Part shown: piece after piece, positions 1 to 11,471 of the stretch
Layout of the letters: each line of letters begins with the position of its first letter
Numbering within the stretch: the first letter of the stretch is position 1
DNA from: Ramlibacter tataouinensis
GTDB lineage: Bacteria; Pseudomonadota; Gammaproteobacteria; Burkholderiales; Burkholderiaceae_C
Assembly: GCF_027941915.1 (NCBI RefSeq)
Contig: NZ_CP116009.1
Coordinates: 1,426,001 to 1,490,000, forward strand
Length of the DNA: 64,000 nucleotides
Direction of reading: 5' to 3'
The notes under the pieces: generated by a model
Seen by the model: the letters and a program-made list of their open reading frames with translations, nothing else
What the model was told of the DNA's origin: nothing
Databases searched by the model: none
Made by a program: the position numbers and the translations under genes

Positions 1-401
1 ACGACCTGTGCATCGGCTGCACCTACTGCGTGGTCGCCTGCCCCTACCAGGCGCGCTTCAAGACCCCGCTCGGACAGTTCGCCTACGGCGACCAGCCGAC
101 CGAGAACGAGGCCTTCCGCGAGGACGAGGCCCGGCGCGAGGTCGCCACCAAGTGCACCTTCTGCGTCGAACGCATCGACAGCGGCCTGGACAAGGGCCTG
201 AAGCCGGGCGTGCACCCCGAGGCCACGCCGGCCTGCGTCAACGCCTGCATCGCCGAGGCGCTGGCGTTCGGCGACATCGAGGATCCGGACAGCAACGTGT
301 CGCAGCTGCTGGCGCGCAACCAGCACTTCCGCATCAACGAGGAGGCGGGCACCGGCCCCGGCTTCTTCTACCTGTGGGACCGCAAGAGGGACGCGACATG
401 A
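1..401 (+). CDS. Fe-S electron-transfer subunit of a DMSO-reductase-family molybdoenzyme (5' truncated)
   Basis: The left window edge cuts this gene, so only the C-terminal ~132 residues are present and no start is visible (a GTG at 30 is internal). The visible part begins with the ferredoxin motif CIGCTYCVVACP, followed by KCTFC and by ACVNAC, the cysteine spacing of the four-cluster DmsB/NrfC family. Such subunits pass electrons between a molybdopterin catalytic subunit and a membrane anchor. The stop overlaps the start of the anchor gene (ATGA), so the two are translationally coupled. The catalytic subunit should lie upstream, outside the window. Beside a phenylacetate-CoA-ligase-type gene and 4-hydroxybenzoyl-CoA reductase, the best inferred role is PadC of phenylacetyl-CoA:acceptor oxidoreductase. 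A DMSO, polysulfide or other oxoanion reductase remains possible. Confidence 0.85.
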   Translation, partial: DLCIGCTYCVVACPYQARFKTPLGQFAYGDQPTENEAFREDEARREVATKCTFCVERIDSGLDKGLKPGVHPEATPACVNACIAEALAFGDIEDPDSNVSQLLARNQHFRINEEAGTGPGFFYLWDRKRDAT

Positions 402-1252
402 ACGCCAACCCCCTGCAGCGGCTGCAGACCTACTGGGACTGGCGCGCGGCCGGCAACTTCATCTGCGGCGGCGCCGGCGCCGGGCTGGCCGTGGTGACCA
501 CGGTGCACGCGATGGACACGCCCGGCGCGCGCTGGATCGTGGCCGCCGGGCTGGCGCTGGTCGGCCTGGGCCTGTTCTGCGTCTGGCTGGAGATCGGCCG
601 GCCACTCCGGGCGCTGAACGTGTTCCTCCACCTGCGCAGCTCCTGGATGTCGCGCGAGGCGGTCGCCGCGGTCGTGCTGTTCCTGCTGGGCAGCGGGCTG
701 GTGCTGGGCATGCCCTGGCGCGCCTGGCCGACCGGCATCGCGGCGCTGGTGTTCCTGTACTGCCAGGCGCGGATCCTGCGCGAGGCGCGCGCGATTCCGG
801 CCTGGCGCGCGCCGCTCACGCTGCCGCTGGTGATGCTCACCGGGCTGGCCGAGGGCATCGGCCTGTTCTGGCTGCTGGCCGCCTGGCTGCGCCCGGAAGC
901 CTTCCTCATGCTGCCGCTGGCCGGGATGCCGATCGCGCGCGGGGCCTTGTGGCTGGTGTGGCGGCGCCAGCTGGAACGCCGCGCCTCGCCGGTGGCGCTG
1001 CGCGCGCTCGACCGCAACGGCCGCTGGTTGCTGGGGGCCGGCACCGTCGCGCCGGTCACGCTGGCGGCGCTGGGCGCCAGCGGCTGGCTGGCCTCGCCAG
1101 TCGCGGCCGCGGCGCTGGCGCTGGCCGGCGCACTGGTCGCGGGCACCGGCGCCGCCTTCAAGTTCTGCCTCATCACCCGCGCCTCGCACCACCTGGGCTA
1201 TTCAATCCCGCGCATGCCGGTGCGCGGGGTGGTGCACACCGCCTCCCACTGA
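398..1252 (+). CDS. DmsC/NrfD-like membrane anchor subunit of the molybdoenzyme
   Basis: This 284-residue protein is almost entirely hydrophobic, with about eight predicted membrane helices; the first follows a short N-terminal segment (MNANPLQRLQTYWDW). Length and pattern fit the DmsC/PadD type of quinone-interacting anchor. The ATG lies inside the stop of the Fe-S subunit gene (ATGA overlap), which fixes the start. Anchors of this kind hold the molybdoenzyme at the cytoplasmic membrane and exchange electrons with the quinone pool. The gene is followed 32 nt later by a CoA ligase. Membership in an anchor family is clear from context and hydrophobicity; assignment to PadD specifically is inference. 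Confidence 0.75.
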   Translation: MNANPLQRLQTYWDWRAAGNFICGGAGAGLAVVTTVHAMDTPGARWIVAAGLALVGLGLFCVWLEIGRPLRALNVFLHLRSSWMSREAVAAVVLFLLGSGLVLGMPWRAWPTGIAALVFLYCQARILREARAIPAWRAPLTLPLVMLTGLAEGIGLFWLLAAWLRPEAFLMLPLAGMPIARGALWLVWRRQLERRASPVALRALDRNGRWLLGAGTVAPVTLAALGASGWLASPVAAAALALAGALVAGTGAAFKFCLITRASHHLGYSIPRMPVRGVVHTASH

Positions 1253-1284: not shown

Positions 1285-2619
1285 ATGGATGCCGCCAGTC
1301 CCACCGAAGCCGGCCGCGAGCAGCGCTTCCTGCACGCCGAACTGGAGACGATGCCGCGCGAGAAGATCGCGGCGCTGCAGTTGCGCCGCCTGCGCGACAC
1401 GCTGGAGAACGCGTACGCCCACGTGCCGCCGGTGCGCCGCAGGCTCGACGAAGCCGGCGTGCGCCCGTCGGACGTGCGCCGGCTGGAGGACGTGGCGCTG
1501 CTGCCCTTCACGAAGAAGACCGACCTGCGCGACAACTTCCCGTTCGGCCTGTTTGCGCGGCCGGTGGCGCAGCTGGCCCGCCTCCATGCCTCCTCCGGCA
1601 CCACCGGCAAGCCCACCGTGGTGGGCTACACCCGCCAGGACCTGGACCAGTGGGCCGACCTGATGGCGCGCTCGCTGTTCGCGGCCGGCGCCCGGCCCGG
1701 CGACATCGTGCACAACGCCTACGGCTACGGCCTGTTCACCGGCGGCCTCGGCGCCCACTACGGCGCCGAGCGGCTGGGCGCGGTGGTGGTGCCGGTGTCC
1801 GGCGGCGGCACCGAACGCCAGGTCGACCTGCTGCAGGACTTCGGCGCCCGCGTGCTGTGCTCGACTCCCTCGTACGCACTGGCCATCGCCGAGGCGGCCG
1901 AGCAGCAGGGCGTGGACCTGCGCCGCAGCCGGCTGCGCATCGGCCTGTTCGGCGCCGAGCCCTGGAGCGCGGCCATGCGGCGCGAGATCGAGGCGCGCAT
2001 CGGCCTGAAGGCCGTCGACGTCTACGGCCTGTCCGAGATCATGGGCCCCGGCGTGGCCTGCGAGTGCGAATGCCAGGACGGCCTGCACGGCTGGGAGGAC
2101 CACTTCCTGTTCGAGGTGATCGACCCCGACACCGGGGTGCCGGTGCCCGAGGGCCAGGCCGGCGAGCTGGTGATCACCACCCTGACTAAGCAGGCGCTGC
2201 CCATGCTGCGCTACCGCACCCGCGACATCACCCGCCTGACCACCGAGCGCTGCGCCTGCGGCCGCACCCATGCGCGCATCCTGCGCATCACCGGCCGCAA
2301 CGACGACATGCTGATCATCCGCGGCGTCAACGTCTATCCCTCGCAGATCGAGGCGGTGCTGGTCGGGCGCGCGATGCTGGCGCCGCACTACCAGCTGGTG
2401 GTCACCCGCGAGGGCATCCTGGACGAGGTGGCCATCGAGGTGGAGGCGCAACCGGGCGTGCCCGCCGACGACTACGCCCACCTGGGCCGCGACCTGGCCC
2501 ACCACGTCAAGGTGCACGTCGGCATCAGCACCCGCGTCAGCGTGCTCGAGCCCGGCCGCGTCGCCCGCTCGCAAGGCAAGGCCGTCCGAGTGCGCGACCT
2601 CAGGCCAAAGGAATCCTGA
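1285..2619 (+). CDS. Phenylacetate-CoA-ligase-type (PaaK/PadJ-like) aryl-CoA ligase
   Basis: A 444-residue adenylate-forming enzyme of the PaaK branch, which is shorter than ordinary acyl-CoA synthetases. The phosphate-binding loop SSGTTGKP is at residues 103-110, the YGLSE motif at 247-251, the hinge segment RNDDMLIIRG near 338, and the C-terminal catalytic lysine (SQGKAVRVR) at about 432. The reaction would be ATP + CoA + aromatic acid to aryl-CoA + AMP + PPi in the cytoplasm. Next to a PadCD-like pair, phenylacetate or 4-hydroxyphenylacetate is the likely substrate (PadJ role). Some relatives activate other aryl acids, such as hydroxybenzoates. The ATG at 1285 begins just after the anchor gene, and the stop is 1 nt before hcrC. 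Confidence 0.85.
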   Translation: MDAASPTEAGREQRFLHAELETMPREKIAALQLRRLRDTLENAYAHVPPVRRRLDEAGVRPSDVRRLEDVALLPFTKKTDLRDNFPFGLFARPVAQLARLHASSGTTGKPTVVGYTRQDLDQWADLMARSLFAAGARPGDIVHNAYGYGLFTGGLGAHYGAERLGAVVVPVSGGGTERQVDLLQDFGARVLCSTPSYALAIAEAAEQQGVDLRRSRLRIGLFGAEPWSAAMRREIEARIGLKAVDVYGLSEIMGPGVACECECQDGLHGWEDHFLFEVIDPDTGVPVPEGQAGELVITTLTKQALPMLRYRTRDITRLTTERCACGRTHARILRITGRNDDMLIIRGVNVYPSQIEAVLVGRAMLAPHYQLVVTREGILDEVAIEVEAQPGVPADDYAHLGRDLAHHVKVHVGISTRVSVLEPGRVARSQGKAVRVRDLRPKES

Positions 2620-2620
2620 A

Positions 2621-3091
2621 ATGCCACACGAAGTGCTCACGCTCGAAGTCAACGGCCGCAGTCAGCAGGTGGTGGCGCCAGGCAGCGCGCTGCTGCTGGA
2701 GGTGCTGCGCGACAAGCTGGGGCTGACCGGCACCAAGCAGGGCTGCGACGGCGGCGAATGCGGCGCCTGCACCGTGCTGGTGGATGGCGAGCCGCGGCTG
2801 GCCTGCATCACGCTGGCCCGCAGCGTCGCCGGGCGCCGGGTCGAGACCATCGAGGGGCTGCTGCGGTCGGGCCGCATGGGCCGGCTGCAGCAGGCTTTCC
2901 ACGAGAAGCTCGGCACCCAGTGCGGCTTCTGCACGCCCGGCATGGTGATGGCGGCCGAGGGCCTGCTGCGGCGCGAGCCCGATCCGACCGAGGCGCAGAT
3001 CCGCGAGGCGCTGGCCGGCAACCTGTGCCGCTGCACCGGCTACGTGAAGATCGTCGAATCGGTGCAGGCCGCCGCGGAGCCCCGGCCATGA
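2621..3091 (+). CDS. hcrC: 4-hydroxybenzoyl-CoA reductase, small [2Fe-2S] subunit
   Basis: A 156-residue two-cluster ferredoxin subunit of the xanthine-oxidase family. The plant-type cluster motif GCDGGECGACTV is near residues 41-52 with its fourth cysteine near 62. The second, helical-bundle cluster is formed by QCGFC (101/104) and NLCRCTGY (136/138). It relays electrons between the FAD subunit and the molybdenum subunit. Gene order C-A-B, tight overlaps and the very strong likeness of the large subunit to Thauera HcrA support 4-hydroxybenzoyl-CoA reductase over carbon monoxide or isoquinoline dehydrogenase. The stop overlaps the start of hcrA (ATGA). Confidence 0.9.
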   Translation: MPHEVLTLEVNGRSQQVVAPGSALLLEVLRDKLGLTGTKQGCDGGECGACTVLVDGEPRLACITLARSVAGRRVETIEGLLRSGRMGRLQQAFHEKLGTQCGFCTPGMVMAAEGLLRREPDPTEAQIREALAGNLCRCTGYVKIVESVQAAAEPRP

Positions 3092-5451
3092 AGCGCGACC
3101 CGCACGCGCCGCAGCGGCCGGTGGCGCCGCCCACCCATTCGGTGGGCGAGCGCACGCCGCTGGTCGACGGCATCGAGAAGGTGACCGGCCGCGCCCGCTA
3201 CACCGCCGACCTGCCGGTCGGCCCCACGCTGGTCGGCCTGATCGGCCGCAGCCCGGTCGCCCACGGCGTGATCCGCTCGATCGACGCCAGCCGCGCGCTG
3301 GCCCTGCCCGGCGTGCGCGCCGTCGTCACCGGCCAGGATTTCGCCGCGCCCTACGGCGTGATCCCGATCGCCCAGAACGAGTGGCCGCTGGCGCGCGACA
3401 AGGTGCGCTACCGCGGCGAGCCGCTGTTCGCCGTGGCTGCCGACGACGAGGCGGCGGCGCGCGCCGCGCTGGCCGCCGTGCAGGTGGAGATCGAGGCATT
3501 GCCGGCGTACTTCGACGCCGCCGCCGCGCGCGCCGACTCCGCCGTGCTGCTGCACGACAACAAGCCGGGCAACCTGGAGCGCCAGGTCGAGCAGCACTTC
3601 GGCGACGTCGAGGCCGGCTTCGCCGCCGCCGACCTGGTGCTGGAGCGCCGCTACGAATGCGCCGAGGTCGCGCACGGCCAGATCGAGCTGAACGCCAGCA
3701 TCGCGCAGTGGGAGCCCGAGCGCGAGCGCCTGACGATCCACTCGGTGACCCAGGTGCCCTACTACCTGCACCTGATGCTGGCCCAGACGCTGGGCCTGGA
3801 CAGCGCCCAGGTGCGGGTGGTCAAGCCCTTCGTCGGCGGCGGCTTCGGCCACCGCGTCGAGCCGCTCAACTTCGAGATGGTGGCGGGCGCGCTGGCCCGC
3901 GCCGCCGGTGGCACGGTGAAGCTGGAGCTCACGCGCGAGGAGGTGTTCCTCACCCACCGCGGCCGGCCGCACACCGAGGTGCGACTGAAGATCGGCCTCC
4001 AGCGCAGCGGCGAGATCACTGCGGTGGACTGCGAGGTGGTGCAGCGCGGCGGCGCCTACGGCGGCTACGGCCTGGTCACCATCCTGTATGCCGGCGCGCT
4101 GCTGCATGCCCTCTACAAGGTCGGGGCGGTGCGCTACCGCGGCTATCGCGTGTACACCAACCTGCCGCCGTGCGGCGCGATGCGCGGCCACGGCGCGGTC
4201 AACGTGCGCTTCGCCTTCGAGTCGCTGCTCGACGAGATGGGCCGGCAGCTCGGGCTCGACCCGTTCGCGCTGCGGCGCGCCAACCTGATCGAGGCGCCGT
4301 ACCGCACGCTCAACGACCTGCAGGTCAATTCCTACGGCCTGCCCGAGTGCCTGGACGCGGTGGAGCGCGCCTCCGGCTGGCACGAGCGCCGCGGCCGGCT
4401 GCCGCCCGGCCGCGGCCTGGGCATGGCCTGCTCGCACTACGTCAGCGGCTCGGCCAAGCCGGTGCACTGGAGCGGCGAACCGCACGCGGTGGTCAACCTC
4501 AAGCTCGACTTCGACGGCAGCATCACCATCCTGACCGGCGCCGCCGACATCGGCCAGGGCTCCAACACCCTGCTCACGCAGGTGGTGGCCGAGGTGCTGC
4601 TGCTGCCGATGTCGCGCATCCGGGTGGTGTCGGCCGACAGCCTGCTCACGCCCAAGGACAACGGCTCCTACTCGTCGCGGGTGTCGTTCATGGTCGGCAA
4701 CGCCGGCCTGCGCGCCGCCGAGGCGCTCAAGCGGGTGCTGGTCGAGGCCGCCGCCAGGCACCTGCAGGTGGCGCCCGAGCAGCTGGAATGGGGCGGCGAA
4801 TCGTGCTGGGTCGCCGGCACCGAACGCTCGCTCGACTGGGCCGGCTGCGTGCAGGCGGCGCTGGCCGACGCCGGCACCCTCACCGTCAAGGGCGCCTGGT
4901 CGACGCCGCCGGAAACCCAGGGCGGCAAGTTCCGCGGCGCCGCCGTCGGCTCCACGGCCGGCTTCAGCTACGCGGCGCAGGTGGTGGAGGTGCAGGTCGA
5001 CGAGGACACCGGCGCCGTGCGCGTCGAGCAGGTCTGGATCGCGCACGACTGCGGCCGCGCCCTCAACCCGCTGGCGGTCGAAGGCCAGGTGCAGGGGGCC
5101 GTCTGGATGGGCATGGGCCAGGCGCTGAGCGAGGAGACGCAGTACCACGCGGGGCTGCACCTGCGGCCCAACCTGCTCGACTACCGCATCCCGACCATCG
5201 CCGAGTCGCCGCCGATCGCCGTCACCCTGGTCGAGAGCCTGGACCCGCTCGGCCCGTTCGGCGCGAAGGAGGGCAGCGAGGGCGGCCTGCACGGCTTTCC
5301 GCCGGCGCTCACCGCCGCCATCGCGGACGCGCTGGGCCTGCGGCTGTCGGCCCTGCCGGTCACGCCCGATCGCCTGTTCGATGCGCTGCAGGCGCGGCGC
5401 CGCGGGCAGAAGCGCCAAGGCGCCAGGCGCACCCTGCCGGAGGCCTCCTGA
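3088..5451 (+). CDS. hcrA: 4-hydroxybenzoyl-CoA reductase, large molybdenum subunit
   Basis: 787 residues, the usual length for HcrA. It removes the phenolic hydroxyl of 4-hydroxybenzoyl-CoA by reduction, giving benzoyl-CoA, a key step in anaerobic aromatic degradation. Recognisable stretches include RTPLVDGIEKVTGRARYTAD near the N terminus, the molybdopterin loop FVGGGFGHR near 250, the segment TGAADIGQGSN near 490, the run LTPKDNGSYSSR, and the C-terminal FGAKEGSEGG with the conserved active-site glutamate near 728. From memory these segments align almost residue by residue with the Thauera aromatica enzyme. Start and stop overlap hcrC and hcrB (ATGA, and TGATG sharing one base), so the subunits are made in step. 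Confidence 0.93.
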   Translation: MKRDPHAPQRPVAPPTHSVGERTPLVDGIEKVTGRARYTADLPVGPTLVGLIGRSPVAHGVIRSIDASRALALPGVRAVVTGQDFAAPYGVIPIAQNEWPLARDKVRYRGEPLFAVAADDEAAARAALAAVQVEIEALPAYFDAAAARADSAVLLHDNKPGNLERQVEQHFGDVEAGFAAADLVLERRYECAEVAHGQIELNASIAQWEPERERLTIHSVTQVPYYLHLMLAQTLGLDSAQVRVVKPFVGGGFGHRVEPLNFEMVAGALARAAGGTVKLELTREEVFLTHRGRPHTEVRLKIGLQRSGEITAVDCEVVQRGGAYGGYGLVTILYAGALLHALYKVGAVRYRGYRVYTNLPPCGAMRGHGAVNVRFAFESLLDEMGRQLGLDPFALRRANLIEAPYRTLNDLQVNSYGLPECLDAVERASGWHERRGRLPPGRGLGMACSHYVSGSAKPVHWSGEPHAVVNLKLDFDGSITILTGAADIGQGSNTLLTQVVAEVLLLPMSRIRVVSADSLLTPKDNGSYSSRVSFMVGNAGLRAAEALKRVLVEAAARHLQVAPEQLEWGGESCWVAGTERSLDWAGCVQAALADAGTLTVKGAWSTPPETQGGKFRGAAVGSTAGFSYAAQVVEVQVDEDTGAVRVEQVWIAHDCGRALNPLAVEGQVQGAVWMGMGQALSEETQYHAGLHLRPNLLDYRIPTIAESPPIAVTLVESLDPLGPFGAKEGSEGGLHGFPPALTAAIADALGLRLSALPVTPDRLFDALQARRRGQKRQGARRTLPEAS

Positions 5452-6431
5452 TGCACGCCCTGCCCGAGTTCACCCTGCGCCGCCCGGCCAGCCTTGCCGA
5501 AGCCGCCGCCCTGCTGGCGGCCGAGCCCGCTGCGCGGCTGGTCGCCGGCGGCACCGACCTGCTGCCCAACCTGCGCCGTGGGCTGGAGCAGCCGCCGGTG
5601 CTGGTCGACCTGTCGGGGCTGCAGCAACTGGCAACGATCGAGGTTGGCCGCGACAGCGGCCTGCTGCTGGGCGCCGGCCTGACGCTGGCCGAACTGGGCC
5701 GCAACCGGACCCTCGCCGAGCGCTGGCCGGCGCTGGCCGAGGCGGCGCGGCAGGTCGCGGCCCCCGGCCACCGCACCGCCGCCACGCTGGGCGGCAACCT
5801 GTGCCAGGACACCCGCTGCGTCTTCTACAACCAGAGCGAGTGGTGGCGCGCCGCCAATGGCTACTGCCTCAAGCGCGGCGGCGACACCTGCCACGTCGCG
5901 CCGCAGGGCGATCGCTGCCACGCCGCTTTCGCCAGCGACCTGGCGCCGGTGCTGCTGGCGCTGGGCGCCGAGGTGGAACTGCACTCGGCCACCGGCTCGC
6001 GCTGGATCCCCCTGCCGGCGCTCTACCGCGACGACAGCGCGGCCCACCTGGCGCTGGCGCGCGGCGAATTGCTGACGCGGGTGCGCCTGCCGGCCGGCCG
6101 GCCCGGCCAGCGGTGCGGCTACCGCAAGGCGCGGGTGCGCTCGGCGGTCGATTTCCCGCTGGCTGCCGTGGCCGTCTCCTGCGTGCTCGAAGACGGCCGC
6201 CTGGCTTCGCTGGCGATCGGCTTGTCGGGAACCAACTCGTTCCCGGTGCTGCTGGCCGGCACCGGCACGCTGGCCGGCCGCCCGGTCGACGGCGACCTGC
6301 TGGCCGCGGTGGGCAAGCTGGTGCAGCAGCAAGCCAGCCCGATGCGCAGCACGGTGACACCGTCCCACTACCGGCGCCAGGTGGCGGCCGCGACCGCGCA
6401 GCGGCTGCTGCGCGAACTGGCCCTCGGCTGA
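5451..6431 (+). CDS. hcrB: 4-hydroxybenzoyl-CoA reductase, FAD subunit with extra [4Fe-4S] insert
   Basis: A 326-residue FAD-binding medium subunit of the xanthine-oxidase family. The FAD motifs VAGGTDLLPN (near residue 35) and TLGGNLCQ (near 113) are present. The insert that separates HcrB from other medium subunits is visible at about 118-157, with cysteines at 123, 139, 147 and 156. Their spacing agrees with the four ligands I recall for the additional [4Fe-4S] cluster in the Thauera enzyme, which lets electrons flow in the reductive direction. This insert is the best single proof that the complex is 4-hydroxybenzoyl-CoA reductase rather than an oxidising dehydrogenase. The ATG at 5451 shares one base with the stop of hcrA. 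Confidence 0.93.
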   Translation: MHALPEFTLRRPASLAEAAALLAAEPAARLVAGGTDLLPNLRRGLEQPPVLVDLSGLQQLATIEVGRDSGLLLGAGLTLAELGRNRTLAERWPALAEAARQVAAPGHRTAATLGGNLCQDTRCVFYNQSEWWRAANGYCLKRGGDTCHVAPQGDRCHAAFASDLAPVLLALGAEVELHSATGSRWIPLPALYRDDSAAHLALARGELLTRVRLPAGRPGQRCGYRKARVRSAVDFPLAAVAVSCVLEDGRLASLAIGLSGTNSFPVLLAGTGTLAGRPVDGDLLAAVGKLVQQQASPMRSTVTPSHYRRQVAAATAQRLLRELALG

Positions 6432-6482: not shown

Positions 6483-8654
6483 ATGTCCTGCCCCCGGTGC
6501 CAAGCCCCCGACGCTGACGAAGCGGGTGACGACTCGATCTGCTGCGCCGGTGCCCCGACGCAGTGGCAATGCGACCTCTGCGGCAAGGTCAGCGAAGGCT
6601 TCGCATTTCCCTACGGCGGCTGCCCGCTGTGCGGCGGCAAGCTGGTGCTGCGCCCGCCGGGGCACGACGCGCGTCCCGAGGGCGCCGCGCTGGAAGCCGT
6701 GCGCATGGCCTTCGAGATCGAACTGGGCGGGCGCGCCTTCTACCAGCAGGCGGCCGTGGAAGCCGGCGACCAGGCGATGCGGGCGCTGTTCGGCGGCCTG
6801 GCCGTGCTCGAGGGCGAGCACATGGAACTGCTCTCGCGCCGCTACCACGTCGAGCCGCCCGCACCGCAGCCGCCGTTCCCGGTGCAACGGGCCGCCCTGT
6901 TCGCCGAAGTCGAGCACCGTCCGCAGGACCCCGACAACCTGTTCCGCATCGCCATCGGGCTGGAAAAGCGCGCCGCCGCGTTCTTCGCCGCCCACGCGGC
7001 GCAGGCCGCGGCCGGCTCGACCGAGCAGCGCCTGTACCTGGAGCTCGGCGCCGAGGAGCGCGAGCACGTCGCGCTGCTCACCGCCGAACACGCGCGCTGG
7101 CGCACCGGCAAGGCCGGCCTGTCCGGCGGCCGGCCGTTCGGCGACCCCGTGCCTGCGGCCGCGCCGCAGGCTGGCGCGCCGTTCAACGCGGCCGCGCTGC
7201 TGCTGGCCGGGGGCAAGCCGGACCACGTCGCGCTGGTGTGCGGCGACCAGCAGCTGACCTATGGCGAGTTGCGCACGCGCGTGGCCCAGGCCGCGGCGGT
7301 CTGGCAGGCGCGCGGGCTGCGACCGCGCGACCGGGTCGCCATCAAGCTGCCCGACGGCATCGACTGGGTCGTGGCCTTCCTCGGCACCATCTGGGCCGGC
7401 GGCGTGGCGGTGGCGGTCAACCCGCAGATCCCGGCCCCCGAATGGCACTACATCCTCGACGAAGCCGGCTTCAACGTGATCCTGGCCGAGAGCGCGCAGG
7501 ACACGCCGGCGCCCTGGTGCGACCGGGTGATGCGGGTGGACGAGGGCCGGCGCGCCGTGGCGGCGGCCACGCCGGTGCCGCCGCACGCCGTCGGCGGCGA
7601 AGAGCCGGTGTTCTGGGTCCACTCCTCCGGCACCTCGGGCAAGCCCAAGGCGGTGGTCCATGCGCACCGCTTCGTGCACGAGATCGAGCGGGTCTCGCGC
7701 GAGCGGGTCGGCATCACCGCGGATGACCGCCTGTTCGCGACCTCGCGCCTGTTCTTCTCCTACCCGCAGACCAACAGCCTGTTCGCCGGCCTGAAGATCG
7801 GCGCCACCGTCATCCTCGATCCGCAGTGGCCGACGGCGGCCTCGGCGGTCGCCACCGCCGAGCGCACCCGGCCCACGGTGTTCCTGAGCGTGCCGTCGCT
7901 GTACCGCTCGATCCTGCACGCCGGCCTGGCGCCGCGGCTGGCCGCGGCCGGCGTCCGCTGCTGCGTCTCGGCCGGCGAAGCCCTGCCGGCCAGCCTGCGT
8001 GCCGCCTGGCGCCAGGCCTGCGGGCTGCCGATGCTGGACGGCTACGGCGCCTCGGAGACGCTGGTGCTGGTGCTGACCGCCGCCGACGGCGACGACGGCC
8101 TGCAGCCCTCGCCGGGGGTCGAGATCGAGCCGGCCGATCCGCAAGCCGCGGCGGCGGGCCTACCGACCCGGCTGCAGTTGCGCGTGTCGACGCTGGCGCT
8201 GGGCTACCTGGACCGGCCGCTGGCCCAGGCCGAGACCTTCCGCGACGGCGCCTTCTGCCCGGCCGACCTGTTCCTGCGCACCGCCGGCGGCGGCTGGCGC
8301 TTCGCCGGGCGCGAGGACTCGCTGGTCAAGATCAAGGGCCGCTGGGTCAACCTGGTGGAGCTGGAAGAGAAGCTGGCCGCCGGCGCCGCCGGCCTGCTGG
8401 AAGCCGGCGCGGTCTGCGTGCCGGACGCCGACGGCGTCGACAGCGTGGCGCTGTTCTACGTGGCGCGCGACGGCCAGGCCGAAGCCGTGGCCCAGGTGCT
8501 GCGCGAGCGGGCGGCGGCGCTGCCGCCGTACCAGCGGCCGAGCCTGCTGCTTGCGGTGCCGGCGCTGCCGCGCACGCCCACCGGCAAGCTGCTGCGCCGC
8601 CGGCTGGCCGAACTGCTGCCGCCACCGGCCGGGCGGCCGGAGCCCGGACCATGA
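6483..8654 (+). CDS. Fusion protein: rubredoxin-like zinc ribbon + rubrerythrin-like diiron domain + benzoate-CoA-ligase-like domain
   Basis: 723 residues in one uninterrupted frame. Residues 1-60 hold two CxxC pairs (WQCDLCGK and GGCPLCGG), a rubredoxin/zinc-ribbon pattern. Residues about 66-210 form a ferritin-like helical domain with a full rubrerythrin-type ligand set: E78 (or E80), E110-x-x-H113, E161 and E192-x-x-H195. From about 235 to the end there is an adenylate-forming ligase with SSGTSGKPK at 381-389, YGASET at 521-526, the hinge REDSLVKIKG, and the catalytic lysine in TPTGKLL at about 702. The ligase part looks like benzoate- or 4-hydroxybenzoate-CoA ligase (BadA/HbaA group). The ATG follows a GAGGAGACGCCG ribosome site 51 nt after hcrB. 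Each domain is certain; what the fusion achieves (peroxide or O2 removal beside an O2-sensitive pathway, or redox control of the ligase) is inference. Confidence 0.85.
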   Translation: MSCPRCQAPDADEAGDDSICCAGAPTQWQCDLCGKVSEGFAFPYGGCPLCGGKLVLRPPGHDARPEGAALEAVRMAFEIELGGRAFYQQAAVEAGDQAMRALFGGLAVLEGEHMELLSRRYHVEPPAPQPPFPVQRAALFAEVEHRPQDPDNLFRIAIGLEKRAAAFFAAHAAQAAAGSTEQRLYLELGAEEREHVALLTAEHARWRTGKAGLSGGRPFGDPVPAAAPQAGAPFNAAALLLAGGKPDHVALVCGDQQLTYGELRTRVAQAAAVWQARGLRPRDRVAIKLPDGIDWVVAFLGTIWAGGVAVAVNPQIPAPEWHYILDEAGFNVILAESAQDTPAPWCDRVMRVDEGRRAVAAATPVPPHAVGGEEPVFWVHSSGTSGKPKAVVHAHRFVHEIERVSRERVGITADDRLFATSRLFFSYPQTNSLFAGLKIGATVILDPQWPTAASAVATAERTRPTVFLSVPSLYRSILHAGLAPRLAAAGVRCCVSAGEALPASLRAAWRQACGLPMLDGYGASETLVLVLTAADGDDGLQPSPGVEIEPADPQAAAAGLPTRLQLRVSTLALGYLDRPLAQAETFRDGAFCPADLFLRTAGGGWRFAGREDSLVKIKGRWVNLVELEEKLAAGAAGLLEAGAVCVPDADGVDSVALFYVARDGQAEAVAQVLRERAAALPPYQRPSLLLAVPALPRTPTGKLLRRRLAELLPPPAGRPEPGP

Positions 8655-9337
8655 CCGAACCCGCCGATCGCATCAACGCCGCCGCGCTGCTGCTGGCGCG
8701 CGGCCTGCCTTCGCAAGCGGCCGTGGCCGGCCCCGACGGCAGCGCGGACTACGCCGCCTTGCGCTCGCAAGTGGCGCAGGCCGCGGGCGCCTGGCACGAT
8801 TTCGGGGTGGAACCCGGCGAGGTCGTGCTGCTGCGCCTGCCGCCGGGCTTGGAGCGCAGCGTCGCCTTCCTCGGCGCGATTTGGGCCGGCGCGGTGCCGG
8901 TGCCGCTGGGCGAAGGCGACGAGGGCCATCGCGGCGACCCCTGGGACGCGCACGCGCCCGCCCGCTTCATCCTGGCCGCCTCGCGCGCCGGCTACGCCTC
9001 GGCCTGGCGCGACAGCGTGCTCACGCGGCTGGAGTGGCGTGCCGGGCTCGGCGCGGCCGGCGCCGCCGAGCCCGTCGCGCTGCCGCCCCAGGCGCCCTGC
9101 TGCTGGACCGAGCCGCGCCGCCGCGGCGGCGACGGCGCCCGGCTGCTGCGGCACGCGTTCGCGCAATTGCAACCGCGCGAAGTGCCGAGCGCCGGCGGCG
9201 AGCCGGTCGAGGCGCCGACCATGCTGGCGCTGCTGCGGGCGTTGCGGCGCGGCGCCAGCGCCGTCATCGGCGACGCGGCCGGCGCCGGCTCCGCACCGCG
9301 GCGCACCGCCCCGGCCGAAGCGCTGGCACTGCCATGA
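8651..9337 (+). CDS. Truncated, probably non-catalytic paralogue of the N-terminal part of the CoA ligase
   Basis: 228 residues. Its first ~110 residues parallel the start of the ligase domain encoded just upstream: INAAALLLARG versus FNAAALLLAGG, QVAQAAGAWHDFG versus RVAQAAAVWQARG, and RSVAFLGAIWAGAVPV versus WVVAFLGTIWAGGVAV. The phosphate-binding loop, the YGxSE motif and the catalytic lysine are all missing, so it should not make acyl-adenylate. The last ~90 residues are Arg/Ala/Pro-rich and match nothing I recognise. It overlaps the fusion gene (ATGA) and the next gene (ATGA), so it is probably translated. It may be a partner or regulatory fragment from tandem duplication, or a decaying copy. 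Confidence 0.6.
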   Translation: MTEPADRINAAALLLARGLPSQAAVAGPDGSADYAALRSQVAQAAGAWHDFGVEPGEVVLLRLPPGLERSVAFLGAIWAGAVPVPLGEGDEGHRGDPWDAHAPARFILAASRAGYASAWRDSVLTRLEWRAGLGAAGAAEPVALPPQAPCCWTEPRRRGGDGARLLRHAFAQLQPREVPSAGGEPVEAPTMLALLRALRRGASAVIGDAAGAGSAPRRTAPAEALALP

Positions 9338-9585
9338 ACGCCGCATCCGTCCCGACCTGGACCGAGGACGGCCTCGAGCACCTGGACGTGCGCGGCCTGC
9401 CGCCGCCGCAGCCGCTGGTGATCATCCTGCGCTGGCTGCAGCAGGGCGCGCGCCGCGCGCCGCTGCTGGTGCACCTGGAGCGCGACCCGGTGATGCTGTA
9501 CCCCGAGCTGGCCGAGATCGGCTGGGAGGGCGTGCGGCAACCGGGTGCGCCGGGCGACGTCCGATTGCTGCTGAGGCCGTCGTGA
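9334..9585 (+). CDS. DUF2249 domain protein
   Basis: 83 residues. The core LDVRGLPPPQPLVIILRWLQ followed by PLLVHLERDPVMLYPELAE is the DUF2249 pattern, a small TusA/SirA-like fold in which an invariant DVRxLPP stretch opens the domain. Proteins of this type commonly sit beside hemerythrins, NnrS and denitrification or nitric-oxide genes, as here. No biochemical role is established to my knowledge. The start overlaps the previous stop (ATGA). A 19-codon frame (9585-9644) could bridge to the next gene, but I see no evidence that it encodes a working peptide. Confidence 0.75.
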   Translation: MNAASVPTWTEDGLEHLDVRGLPPPQPLVIILRWLQQGARRAPLLVHLERDPVMLYPELAEIGWEGVRQPGAPGDVRLLLRPS

Positions 9586-9640
9586 TGAGCGCCGTCCGCC
9601 CGCCCGCGTGCACGGCCGCCCGCGACTGGGAGGTGCGGCC

Positions 9641-10918
9641 GTGAACGCGATCGGCGGCGCCTTCCTCGGCGGCGCCAGCGGCCGGCTGCTGCCCGCCTCG
9701 GTGCCGCTGCGCTTCTTCGGCACGGCGGCCGCCTGCCACGTGCTGGCCTGGCTGGCCCTGGCGCTGGCGCCGGGCGACTGGCTGCAGTTCGCCGGCGGAC
9801 TGGGCTGGCCGCTGGCGGGGCTGCACCTGTTGACGCTGGGCGTGTTCGGCATGACCGCGCTGGGCGCCGCCGCCCAACTGCTGCCGGTGGCCACGCGCCA
9901 GGCGCCCGTCGGCGAGCGCGCCCTGGCGGCGATCTGGTGGTTCTACAGCGGCGGGCTGGCGCTGCTGGCGCTGGGCATGGGGCTGGCGCGGCCATCGTGG
10001 CTGCTGGCCGGCGGCAGTGCCGTGGGCGCCGCGCTGGCCGCCTGGTCGCTGCTGGTGGCGCGCCACCTGCTGGGGGCGCGCGGCATGCCCGGCGTGCTGA
10101 TGCATGCCTGGGGCGCGCTGGCGTCGCTGCTGGTGCTGCTGGCGTCGGCCCTGCTGCTGATCGCCGGCTGGCAGGGCTGGCCGGCGCCCGCGCGCGCCGA
10201 GCTGCTGCCGCTGCACCTGCTGTTCGCCCCGTTCGGCTTCATGGGGCTGCTGGTGCTGGGGCTGTCGTACATCCTGGTGCCGATGTTCACGCTGGCGCAT
10301 CCCACGCCCAGCGAACGGCTGCAGCTGGCCTCGGGCGGGCTGGTCATGGCGGGGCTGCTGCTGGGTGCGGCTGCGGTGCTGATGCCGGACCTGGCGCTGC
10401 TGCGCGGCGCCGCCTGGGCCGCCGGCAGCACCGGCGTGCTGCTGCACCTGGTCCTGATGCGCCGCTCGATCACCCAGGGCATGCGCAAGTCGCTCGGCCG
10501 CTCGTTCGTGCTGCTGCACCTGGGCTGGGGCGCGCTGCTGCTGACGCTGGTGCTGGGCGGCGTGCTGTGGGCCGGCGTCGACGACGCGCGGCTGCGCGCC
10601 GGCTTCGCGCTGGCGCTGCTGGCCTGGCTGCTGAGCACGGTGCTCGGCTTCATGCAGCGCATCCTGCCGTTCCTGGCGGCGCTGCACGCGGCGGCCGGCC
10701 GGCGGCGCGGGCCCACGGCGTCGTCGCTCACCCACGAGCCCTCGCTGCGCGTGCACTTCGCCTGCCACGCGGCCGCGTTCGGCCTGCTGGCGCTGGCGGT
10801 GCTGCTGCAGGCGCCGCTGCTGGCGCGGCTGGCCGCGGTCGTCGGGCTGGCGGGCGCGGGCGCGTTCGCGGCCTTCCATGTGCACCTGCTGCGGCGCCTG
10901 CGCGCCGCCCGGAATTGA
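9641..10918 (+). CDS. NnrS-like polytopic membrane protein
   Basis: 425 residues from a GTG start at 9641 (VNAIGGAFLGG); no better in-frame ATG exists before the first membrane helix. About ten to twelve hydrophobic helices cover nearly the whole length, with histidines and short basic loops between them (ARHLLGARG, RRSITQGMRKSLGRSF). The pattern resembles NnrS and the related heme-copper-oxidase-like membrane proteins encoded near nitric-oxide metabolism genes. With DUF2249 upstream and a hemerythrin downstream, a role in nitrosative stress or NO handling is the best inference. The exact family is uncertain because helix-rich sequence gives few diagnostic motifs. Confidence 0.6.
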   Translation: MNAIGGAFLGGASGRLLPASVPLRFFGTAAACHVLAWLALALAPGDWLQFAGGLGWPLAGLHLLTLGVFGMTALGAAAQLLPVATRQAPVGERALAAIWWFYSGGLALLALGMGLARPSWLLAGGSAVGAALAAWSLLVARHLLGARGMPGVLMHAWGALASLLVLLASALLLIAGWQGWPAPARAELLPLHLLFAPFGFMGLLVLGLSYILVPMFTLAHPTPSERLQLASGGLVMAGLLLGAAAVLMPDLALLRGAAWAAGSTGVLLHLVLMRRSITQGMRKSLGRSFVLLHLGWGALLLTLVLGGVLWAGVDDARLRAGFALALLAWLLSTVLGFMQRILPFLAALHAAAGRRRGPTASSLTHEPSLRVHFACHAAAFGLLALAVLLQAPLLARLAAVVGLAGAGAFAAFHVHLLRRLRAARN

Positions 10919-10988
10919 AGAAGGTCAAGGCGGCGGCGACGCCTTGTGCCTATCGTGGATCGACCGGAAGTTCCCGAGGAGACGCAAC

Positions 10989-11471
10989 ATGAGCACCACC
11001 CAAGTCGGACGCATGCTGGACGAAGAGCACCGCACCAACCTCGACCTGCTGGCCCGGGTCGAGCAGGCGATCGGGCGTGCGCCCGCGGCCACCGAGGAGC
11101 TGACGCGCCTGCTGCAGCGGTTCGCGCATGCGATCGAGTTCGACATCGGCCGGCACTTCCAGTTCGAGGAGGAGTTCCTGTTCCCGCGCATGGCGGAGGC
11201 CGGCGACGGCGCCATGGCCGAGCTGATGACCGAGGAGCACCAGTCGATCCGCGAGGTCGCCGCCGAACTGCTGCCGCTGGTGCGCCTCGTCGCCGCCGGC
11301 CAGGTCGACGAGGAATCCTGGGACCGGCTGCGCATGCTCACGCTGGAACTGGTGGAGCGCCAGGTCAGCCACATCCAGAAGGAGACCATGGCGCTGCTGC
11401 CGCTGCTGGAGGACCTGCTGGATGCGCAGACCGACGGCGAGCTGGCGCTGGAGTATTCGGCAGAGGCTTGA
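10989..11471 (+). CDS. Hemerythrin HHE domain protein
   Basis: 160 residues, mostly helical. The metal-binding pattern is visible: EEHRT near residue 11, then IGRHFQFEEEFLFPRM near 53-68 with the HxxxE pair, EEHQSIRE near 82-89, and a late HIQKE near 130. Hemerythrins bind O2 or NO at a non-heme diiron centre and can act as sensors, scavengers or iron-centre repair proteins (the YtfE type). The ATG at 10989 follows a clear GAGGAGACG ribosome site. It lies 70 nt after the NnrS-like gene and is the last gene of the left-hand operon, supporting an O2/NO-protection role for the operon tail. Confidence 0.82.
   Translation: MSTTQVGRMLDEEHRTNLDLLARVEQAIGRAPAATEELTRLLQRFAHAIEFDIGRHFQFEEEFLFPRMAEAGDGAMAELMTEEHQSIREVAAELLPLVRLVAAGQVDEESWDRLRMLTLELVERQVSHIQKETMALLPLLEDLLDAQTDGELALEYSAEA

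Follow-up and report, generated by a model that had tools for sequence, protein, structure and literature searches.

Rubrerythrins and reverse rubrerythrins combine a four-helix diiron domain with a rubredoxin-like cysteine ribbon, and diiron domains of this kind often remove peroxide or oxygen. Flavoprotein-rubrerythrin pairs termed Rub-Bfu are described as predicted peroxide reducers (PMC9304861). In Rhodopseudomonas palustris, AadN (RPA0678), a single-chain Nfn homologue encoded near hba genes, is reported as required for anaerobic growth on benzoate and 4-hydroxybenzoate and as probably feeding benzoyl-CoA reductase; mutual exclusion of nfnAB and korAB is also reported for this species, and the words ferritin and rubrerythrin are absent from the main text of the paper (PMC9973337).

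How facultative bacteria run the oxygen-sensitive benzoyl-CoA pathway beside an oxygen-using one is an open question. Here we analyse a gene within a stretch of 64,000 nucleotides from Ramlibacter tataouinensis (the window), in which a metal domain of the peroxide/oxygen type has been tied by evolution to the probable entry enzyme of that pathway, and can be traced to a class of flavoproteins with a suggested role in supplying benzoyl-CoA reductase.

A fused gene shared by many relatives

The initial annotation had reported one uninterrupted frame joining a rubrerythrin to an aryl-CoA ligase. The frame is indeed single, opens with ATG and encodes 723 amino acids (Table 1). An artefact at the junction was ruled out by the presence of the fusion in relatives, where 33 distinct fused genes, Burkholderiales for the most part, were aligned; the gene is intact in Ramlibacter lithotrophicus RBP-1 (L031, titled a strain and not a MAG) and in many MAGs. 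In the pairs tested, dN/dS lies below 1 in both halves, indicating purifying selection, with the diiron part (0.09-0.53, 11 pairs) under weaker constraint than the ligase in 9 pairs and under equal constraint in 1. To judge from the sequences, the fusion is a natural joining of two complete proteins, common to many relatives. The AF2 model (pTM 0.65, a value that does not bear on domain packing) gives pLDDT below 50 at residues 214-229 of the linker, and the ligase's own start methionine is retained in only 4/39 fused rows.

The annotation also knew of no described enzyme with this layout; none is named among the titles and abstract openings listed from open-licence PMC papers (20 of 758 and 10 of 16 matches in the two listings that were cut short). 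PADLOC returned nothing. Searches of 300 order-level and 398 phylum-level genomes each gave 2 matches, window included; 149 genomes of the family of G598 gave 2, and 64 genomes of the family of G141 gave 10 at E<=1e-6, including two weak matches and a partial one.

Table 1. Features of the fusion gene and its neighbours in the window
Feature	Coordinates	Strand	Basis
Membrane-anchor-like subunit, DMSO-reductase-type complex	398..1252	+	gene call; same block in relatives
Phenylacetate-CoA ligase family (PaaK/PadJ-like)	1285..2619	+	TIGR02155, 596.9 bits, below cut-off 646.3
hcrC-like, 4-hydroxybenzoyl-CoA reductase gamma (2Fe-2S)	2621..3091	+	TIGR03193, 251.1, just below 257.8
hcrA, 4-hydroxybenzoyl-CoA reductase alpha (molybdopterin)	3088..5451	+	TIGR03194, 1179.6, above cut-off 994.55
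hcrB, 4-hydroxybenzoyl-CoA reductase beta (FAD)	5451..6431	+	TIGR03195, 406.7, above cut-off 404.55
Fusion gene	6483..8654	+	ribbon-diiron domain + aryl-CoA ligase, 723 aa
Double Cys-quartet ribbon, N-terminal	6483..6650	+	residues 1-56; C3 C6 C20 C21 / C30 C33 C47 C50
Four-helix diiron domain	6651..7106	+	residues ~57-208; presumed ligands E80, E110, H113, E161, E192, H195
Linker	7107..7184	+	residues ~209-234; length and composition vary among homologues (junction table)
Aryl-CoA ligase domain	7185..8651	+	residues 235-723; HbdA, BadA matches
228-aa fragment-like paralogue of ligase N-terminal part	8651..9337	+	PF00501 positions 7-79 only
DUF2249 protein	9334..9585	+	PF10006, 37.3 bits; start overlaps preceding stop
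Hydrophobic, probably membrane protein	9641..10918	+	GRAVY 0.99, ~10 hydrophobic segments
Hemerythrin-like protein	11013..11471	+	PF01814, 60.5 bits on longer reading 10878-11468

The ribbon-diiron domain

The N-terminus, previously read as a single two-CxxC ribbon, instead carries two cysteine quartets. Among ungapped fused genes, C21, C30, C33 and C47 are kept in 31/31, C50 in 32/32, C3 and C6 in 30/30 and C20 in 30/31; the copy in G026 has lost three of the four cysteines of the first quartet, and that in G032 the whole ribbon. The pattern CxxC-x13-CxxC is conserved, with weak profile matches to PF21349 RUBY_RBDX (14.8 bits) and to the ribbon of 1b71 (E 0.066).

Behind the ribbon, the AF2 model predicts four long helices (67-93, 97-121, 150-174 and 180-207). 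E78, E80, E110, H113, E161, E191, E192 and H195 are identical in the 33/33 distinct fused genes and in 8/8 unfused relatives, so that the complete diiron ligand set claimed at the outset stands: an E / ExxH / E / ExxH arrangement of presumed ligands on four helices in 41/41 genes, as known from sequence and model. This four-helix domain is predicted to bind iron. Classic rubrerythrin carries a second glutamate on helix C; where it would be expected, all 41 genes have alanine (A164), a position equated by helix spacing and not from a solved metal site.

As a family label, rubrerythrin is supported by the ligands, but the window protein scores 17.6 bits against Pfam Rubrerythrin (PF02915), under the cut-off of 22.8, and by this sub-threshold score the domain is best called rubrerythrin-like. 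Two standalone homologues exceed the cut-off (L114, 28.7 bits; L116, 35.6 bits). The best Foldseek matches listed for the diiron domain are 2fzf and 2oh3, and no chain titled rubrerythrin is among the best 50 listed; alignment A2 includes three distant rubrerythrins, which shift its PDB profile match toward 2oh3.

Probable origin of the N-terminal module

A new finding, absent from the initial annotation, is the probable source of this domain, namely the end of an NfnAB protein. Residues 1-223 score 260.5 bits against positions 798-1005 of PRK12775, which align end to end with fusion residues 2-213, across both the ribbon and the presumed diiron ligands. By this match, the ribbon-diiron module is the one at the C-terminus of PRK12775, a protein in which NfnAB and a ferritin-like part form a single chain. 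Only those C-terminal positions are covered, and the score lies under the whole-length cut-off of PRK12775 / NF009413 (1895); the nfnAB of L031 aligns with positions 1-777, and L125 encodes the full single chain (1983.5 bits).

Within one bacterial order, the module is found in two forms: as a separate gene immediately behind nfnAB, and joined to the ligase, in most cases immediately behind nfnAB or hcrB. We found six complete standalone copies, each no more than 200 bp downstream of nfnAB. The standalone copy of L114 is followed by a frame that, by eye, reads like a dicluster ferredoxin. In 26 named loci, the fusion directly follows nfnAB in 14 (7 of these with hcr in the fetched stretch) and hcrB in 8, while 3 loci end at the contig end and one, L046, has neither gene found. 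To the question raised initially, whether the fusion always sits beside hcr genes, the answer is thus often but not always; two further genomes of the genus (L063, L064) have it at a distance from nfnAB and hcrB alike. The L046 contig has an abrupt change in G+C and is possibly chimeric.

In the ligase tree, the 30 fused ligases form one clade (100/99), indicating that on the ligase side the fusion arose once. In the ribbon-diiron tree a single origin was rejected (29 rows, AU p 0.0026): the fused genes do not group as a single clade there, since standalone genes branch between them. Some fused genes may have split again later, or the N-terminal half may have been exchanged. The module would have passed from the flavoprotein to the ligase.

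In the window's genome nfnAB was not found (best match 38%, C-terminal half only). The presumed ancestral electron donor would then be missing, and we found none in its stead.

The ligase half and its surroundings

The C-terminal half is an adenylate-forming ligase by its AMP-binding match (PF00501, E 5.3e-59, 200.4 bits against a cut-off of 29.9), an AMP-binding_C match (PF13193) and its catalytic residues, including the C-terminal lysine K702. Over 40 aligned rows, which include near-duplicates and one row lacking the ligase, S382, G383, T384, G386, E525, D595, R610 and K616 are kept in 39/39 ungapped rows, K389 in 38/39, K702 in 38/38 and S381 in 37/39, and the adenylation motifs are intact, as first proposed. 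BadA (4eat) is the best PDB sequence match (E 6.6e-60), HbdA the best NCBIfam match, and Foldseek points to BadA/AuaEII; the scores for HbdA (NF053567, 298.7 bits) and the benzoate-CoA ligase family (TIGR02262, 261.3 bits) are under the cut-offs of 1000 and 375.25. By these matches, the ligase is nearest to 3-hydroxybenzoate- and benzoate-CoA ligases, and it probably acts on a (hydroxy)benzoate feeding HcrCAB and benzoyl-CoA reductase. In several relatives, genes for an enoyl-CoA hydratase, a dehydrogenase and an acyl-CoA dehydrogenase lie 3' of the fusion, hinting at other substrates.

The fusion lies just 3' of hcrCAB, about 50 bp from hcrB. The 4-hydroxybenzoyl-CoA reductase operon named initially is supported by hcrA and hcrB, which pass NCBIfam equivalog cut-offs, with hcrC slightly short of its own. 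The operon forms part of a larger supercluster for anaerobic aromatic metabolism, with bcrCBAD, korAB-like and pad-like genes, which reaches 26 kb or more beyond the upstream edge of the window. A rubrerythrin of its own (PF02915, 57.2 bits) follows the korAB-like pair, and relatives also have another rubrerythrin of a different kind (31-36%). The first product in Table 1, which we take to be padD-like, had no NCBIfam match at E 0.001. Downstream, the fragment-like paralogue shares 33% identity with residues 213-397 of the fusion, and its start overlaps the stop codon of the fusion gene. Neither Pfam nor NCBIfam gave a match for the hydrophobic protein, which in relatives adjoins DUF2249 and hemerythrin genes; the label 'nnrSlike' has no family support. 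The hemerythrin-like protein had no NCBIfam match at 1e-20.

Association with the benzoyl-CoA pathway

A marker of the oxygen-sensitive benzoyl-CoA pathway, bcrB is present in 16 of 59 genomes of the genus; the domain occurs in 12/16 of these and in 0/43 of the rest (Fisher p 1.6e-9, kinship not corrected for), an association that bears out the pathway context first suggested. Four genomes have bcrB but not the domain. The oxygen-using box pathway was rejected as context: boxB is present in 54/59 genomes, the domain in 12/59, every one among the 16 with bcrB. Both bcrB and boxB are found in the window's genome. Mutual exclusion of nfnAB and korAB does not hold in the genus: korA and bcrB share the same 16 genomes, 6 of which also have nfnAB. 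Here nfnAB was counted at E 0 and 86-100% identity, leaving aside a 53% relative in G024 (a genome without bcrB) and matches of half length (53-55%) in G003, G005, G008, G036, G068, G069 and G076.

Proposed mechanism and alternatives

We propose, with about even confidence, that a diiron module reducing peroxide or O2 is tethered to a ligase that feeds an oxygen-sensitive pathway. Mechanistically, a reduced flavoprotein or ferredoxin would pass electrons into the cysteine ribbons, which would relay them to the diiron site for reduction of H2O2 or O2; the tethered ligase would make the aryl-CoA substrate at the same time, and oxidant removal would thereby be coupled to entry into the oxygen-sensitive pathway. 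Both the peroxidase or oxidase activity and the electron donor are predictions. Consistent with the proposal are the invariant presumed ligands, the dN/dS of the diiron part, the relation to PRK12775 with standalone copies beside nfnAB, the distribution by bcrB, the korAB-like pair with its own rubrerythrin, the single clade of fused ligases, and what is described for AadN (PMC9973337) and Rub-Bfu (PMC9304861). Against it stand the missing nfnAB, the alanine at 164 with no apparent counterpart of the helix-C glutamate, the weaker constraint on the diiron part, the ligase's position under both curated cut-offs with downstream genes hinting at other substrates, the four bcrB-positive genomes without the domain, and the losses in G026 and G032.

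The diiron/ribbon half might alternatively sense peroxide, O2 or iron and toggle the ligase, admitting aromatic acids to the anaerobic route only under reducing conditions. A valve would be useful where bcrB and boxB coexist, and the halves are covalently linked, few ligases keeping their own start; the low-confidence linker of variable length argues against tight allosteric coupling, and we rate such gating as unlikely. More specifically, and in our estimate rather unlikely, the diiron half would act as an oxygen valve, letting aromatic acids enter the 4-hydroxybenzoyl-CoA/benzoyl-CoA reductase route, in bacteria with bcr and box genes, only when its site is reduced; gene fission and fusion would have moved the sensor from an electron-supplying type of flavoprotein to a substrate-supplying enzyme.

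That the bundle oligomerises the ligase or docks it to NfnAB or HcrCAB as a metabolon, with metal chemistry secondary, is suggested by the position of the fusion directly after nfnAB or hcrB in 22/26 named loci and by an HcrB in frame with the diiron-ligase in G032 (985 aa). We find this quite doubtful, as docking alone would not preserve the presumed metal ligands in 41/41 genes and the HcrB fusion is known from one MAG only.

Some other diiron carboxylate enzymes act as oxygenases on substrates, and a 4Glu2His set of six ligands, lacking the additional glutamate of rubrerythrin, would fit such a role. Oxygenase-like action on the aromatic substrate is nevertheless improbable, for the domain tracks bcrB and not boxB, and also occurs unfused beside nfnAB. 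Misassembly, a spurious frameshift or gene decay, to which the remnant-like neighbouring frame and the possibly chimeric L046 contig might point, has a negligible chance given the intact strain and MAG copies, the 33 distinct genes and the purifying selection on both halves.

Contained in one protein of ordinary size, the arrangement allows both oxidant protection and redox gating to be tested in R. lithotrophicus RBP-1.

Comparison with known systems

Like rubrerythrin and reverse rubrerythrin, the fusion has a four-helix diiron domain with a cysteine ribbon that may be rubredoxin-like; its ribbon, on the other hand, is N-terminal and doubled, and alanine occupies position 164. The ligase shares fold and adenylation motifs with BadA and HbdA, but is only about 30% identical to BadA and under both family cut-offs; BadA has H333/I334 opposite a Val/Leu pair, and no diiron half. 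As in Rub-Bfu, where an electron-transfer flavoprotein gene adjoins a rubrerythrin gene, peroxide reduction is predicted, whereas Rub-Bfu is described with another flavoprotein family (BfuBC) and without a ligase (PMC9304861). AadN, as described, likewise ties an Nfn-type protein to anaerobic aromatic-degradation genes (PMC9973337). The closest counterpart is PRK12775 / NF009413, whose C-terminal module corresponds to the N-terminal half of the fusion, ribbon and presumed ligands included: there the module sits on an NfnAB flavoprotein, here on an aryl-CoA ligase.

Architecture and setting of the fusion protein

The frame of the fusion gene is open throughout, in keeping with the initial annotation, and it directly follows hcrCAB (4-hydroxybenzoyl-CoA reductase), the operon setting also recognised there, with about 50 bp between hcrB and its start; at the other end, the start of the following frame and the stop codon of the fusion overlap. 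The N-terminal part carries eight cysteines (3, 6, 20 and 21, then 30, 33, 47 and 50) and four long helices in an AF2 model of the whole protein (mean pLDDT 86, pTM 0.65), in which the linker 214–229 is of low confidence. Foldseek-type comparison identified the diiron half as ferritin-like, nearest to 2fzf and 2oh3 (TM 0.45–0.49 on the query). Pfam places AMP-binding at 243–547 and AMP-binding_C at 636–702; the ligase has a BadA-type fold, and its nearest profile is HbdA, at a score below the cut-off.

Coordinates of the fusion gene and related features
Feature	Location	Strand	Description
Ribbon-diiron/ligase fusion	window 6483–8654	+	single frame, 723 codons, no interruption
Ligase-like frame	window 8651–9337		228 aa; matches just the first part of AMP-binding
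DUF2249, hydrophobic protein without family, hemerythrin	window 9334–11471		one block
2-oxoacid:acceptor oxidoreductase pair, with rubrerythrin	L054:1552–4684 (G000:C1:1407652–1410784)		upstream of the window
Standalone rubrerythrin	L054:4175–4684		start overlaps the beta gene
HcrB (FAD subunit) in frame with diiron domain and ligase	L042:4146–7052; G032 (L013)	reverse in L013	one gene, 985 aa, without Cys ribbon; one MAG
End of unfused ribbon-diiron copy	L030:6–311		cut by contig end; 15 bp before the fused gene
Further rubrerythrin, like 2oh3 of Magnetospirillum	L051:13675–14172; L045:13812–14306; others		downstream of the SDR dehydrogenase gene after the fusion

The window begins within a pad-like complex, whose large subunit lies in the upstream stretch L054, followed by a PaaK-type ligase recognised by Pfam, hcrCAB and the fusion. 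A stretch 21.5–26.5 kb ahead of the window's first base holds bcrC, bcrB, bcrA, bcrD and a dicluster ferredoxin gene, all scoring over their cut-offs, and the oxidoreductase pair sits between these and the pad-like/hcr block (NCBIfam: alpha TIGR03710, 556.6 against a cut-off of 482.75; beta TIGR02177, 257.6, just under 261.9). Pad and kor are the names that we assume for these genes; NCBIfam supports their enzyme classes, with the phenylglyoxylate-type subunits below equivalog cut-offs. The L054 rubrerythrin adds a second diiron-type protein, this one linked to what is probably a ferredoxin-reducing enzyme in that pathway.

Between 1,386,101 and 1,490,000 of its own genome, the sole other match to the fusion protein is the 228-aa frame behind it, which looks like a ligase remnant nevertheless kept open; frames related to it (42–46% identity) lie behind a second copy of the fusion in G036 (L043/L057) and in G003 (L056). 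Elsewhere in the genome the nearest paralogue (34%) is more than 1.2 Mb off, some 3 kb away from boxB, a gene of the oxygen-using route.

Spread and conservation

Whole or nearly whole copies, 64–76% identical, occur in six other genomes of the genus (G003, G005, G023, G026, G032 and G036; the search covered 61, with the window's own among them). Two full copies are present in G036, and one full plus one partial copy in G003; the fusion sits apart from both hcr and nfnAB (electron-transfer flavoprotein genes) in G023 and G026, and in the G026 copy three of the four first-quartet Cys are missing. Named genomes, when scanned, yielded 26 loci, seven titled Ramlibacter, four Rubrivivax and one each Rhizobacter, Piscinibacter, Aquabacterium and Ideonella, with L052 holding the ligase part only and L035 and L042 lacking the first residues. 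L031 carries the title of a strain, Ramlibacter lithotrophicus RBP-1; over 779 aa its nfnAB shows 100% identity to nfnAB of G068, a genome of the window's genus, which would make that genus Ramlibacter as GTDB defines it. Fourteen of the 26 loci also have DUF2249, mostly with the hydrophobic protein and hemerythrin. One locus, L046, is filed as Anaerolineales; its fusion gene and the one in an Aquabacterium MAG (L045) share 97% identity, and G+C, sharply lower just upstream, steps up at the gene from about 0.5 to 0.7, so that this contig may be chimeric or misfiled.

Presence in relatives, which the initial annotation had put forward as a check, is borne out by 33 distinct fused genes, and the fusion is not window-specific. 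Across 41 distinct genes (these 33, 6 standalone and 2 NfnAB tails), E78, E80, E110, H113, E161, E191, E192 and H195 are invariant; C21, C30, C33 and C47 are unchanged in each of the 31 fused genes that extend over those columns, and C50 in 32 of 32. Identity to the window's fusion is 55–77% for the 32 fused genes other than the window's own. For 11 pairs of close relatives, which in part share members, dN/dS comes to 0.09–0.53 for the diiron part and 0.08–0.31 for the ligase (window versus L031: 0.39 and 0.26), constraint being weaker in the diiron part in nine and equal in one.

Origin of the ribbon-diiron half

In the NCBIfam model PRK12775 (1006 positions), 1–777 correspond to nfnAB of L031 and 798–1005 to fusion residues 2–213. 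Both parts form one chain in two genomes of another family, L125 (994 aa; 1983.5 bits, over the cut-off of 1895) and L127. All six complete standalone copies (L058, L103, L114, L115, L116 and L118) sit behind nfnAB at a distance of no more than 200 bp; in L114 a frame reading like a dicluster ferredoxin comes after. In L030, unfused and fused forms may stand in tandem. The association with hcr, raised earlier as possibly constant, holds in part: the fusion directly follows hcrB in 8 of the 26 named loci but nfnAB in 14, once with a 1 kb gap; a contig end cuts three (L030, L035, L052), and L046 shows neither.

Standalone copies stop soon after a W-x-x-G-K-P-G-L-like stretch, past which fused copies run through a variable, often Ala/Pro/Gly-rich linker to N(A/G)A, where unfused ligase relatives start M-NAA. 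Of 39 fused rows, four (L037, L039, L117, L119) retain the Met; the others have I, L, V, F or D in its place. In the ligase tree the fused rows (30 of the 33) form one clade (100/99), which excludes three unfused ligases about 45% identical and five other ligases; in the ribbon-diiron tree they do not form a single clade. We infer that the tail of an Nfn-type flavoprotein would have become its own gene and then been attached to a ligase, and that the window's lineage has lost nfnAB.

Co-occurrence with bcrB

Among 59 genomes of the genus, bcrB, marker of the oxygen-sensitive route, is present in 16 (15 over cut-off, plus G003 with a partial match at 9e-82; G006 and G029, which match weakly, were excluded), and korA in exactly the same 16. 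The ribbon-diiron domain, called at E below 1e-20, occurs in 12, every one within these 16, and is missing at that threshold from G007, G008, G014 and G016; weak matches (2e-8 to 3e-4) were treated as other rubrerythrins, as confirmed for G000 (the window's genome) and G036 only. With kinship ignored, the association has a Fisher p of 1.6e-9, and p is 2.8e-6 (8 of 12 versus 0 of 32) when completeness is required to reach 90% and contamination not to exceed 5%. boxB matches occur in 54 of the 59, and 16 of the 59 have bcrB as well.

Proposed role and relation to known systems

From the fold and profiles of both halves, their neighbours and the literature parallels, we propose a putative module that would reduce peroxide or O2, tethered to the pathway's entry ligase, a reading akin to the oxidant scavenging suggested initially and one to which we give an even chance. 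Published work describes AadN of R. palustris, an Nfn homologue (PMC9973337), and flavoprotein-rubrerythrin pairs as predicted peroxide reducers (PMC9304861); PMC10803450 counts Ramlibacter as one of the genera whose benzoate-CoA ligase stands in an incomplete box context. Of the main rivals, a redox gate on the ligase, the other initial suggestion, appears unlikely, and a docking scaffold slightly more so.

The ligase substrate need not be 4-hydroxybenzoate in every relative, since genes for an enoyl-CoA hydratase and an SDR dehydrogenase follow the fusion in L031, L032, L033, L043, L045, L050 and L051, and often genes for an acyl-CoA dehydrogenase and a TRAP transporter as well.

The combination is not named in the titles and abstract openings listed from the open-licence papers searched. 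PRK12775, parent of the ribbon-diiron module, has a name but is, as far as these searches show, uncharacterised. Either half alone is of a known kind; what appears to be new is the joining of a ribbon-diiron module with an aryl-CoA ligase.
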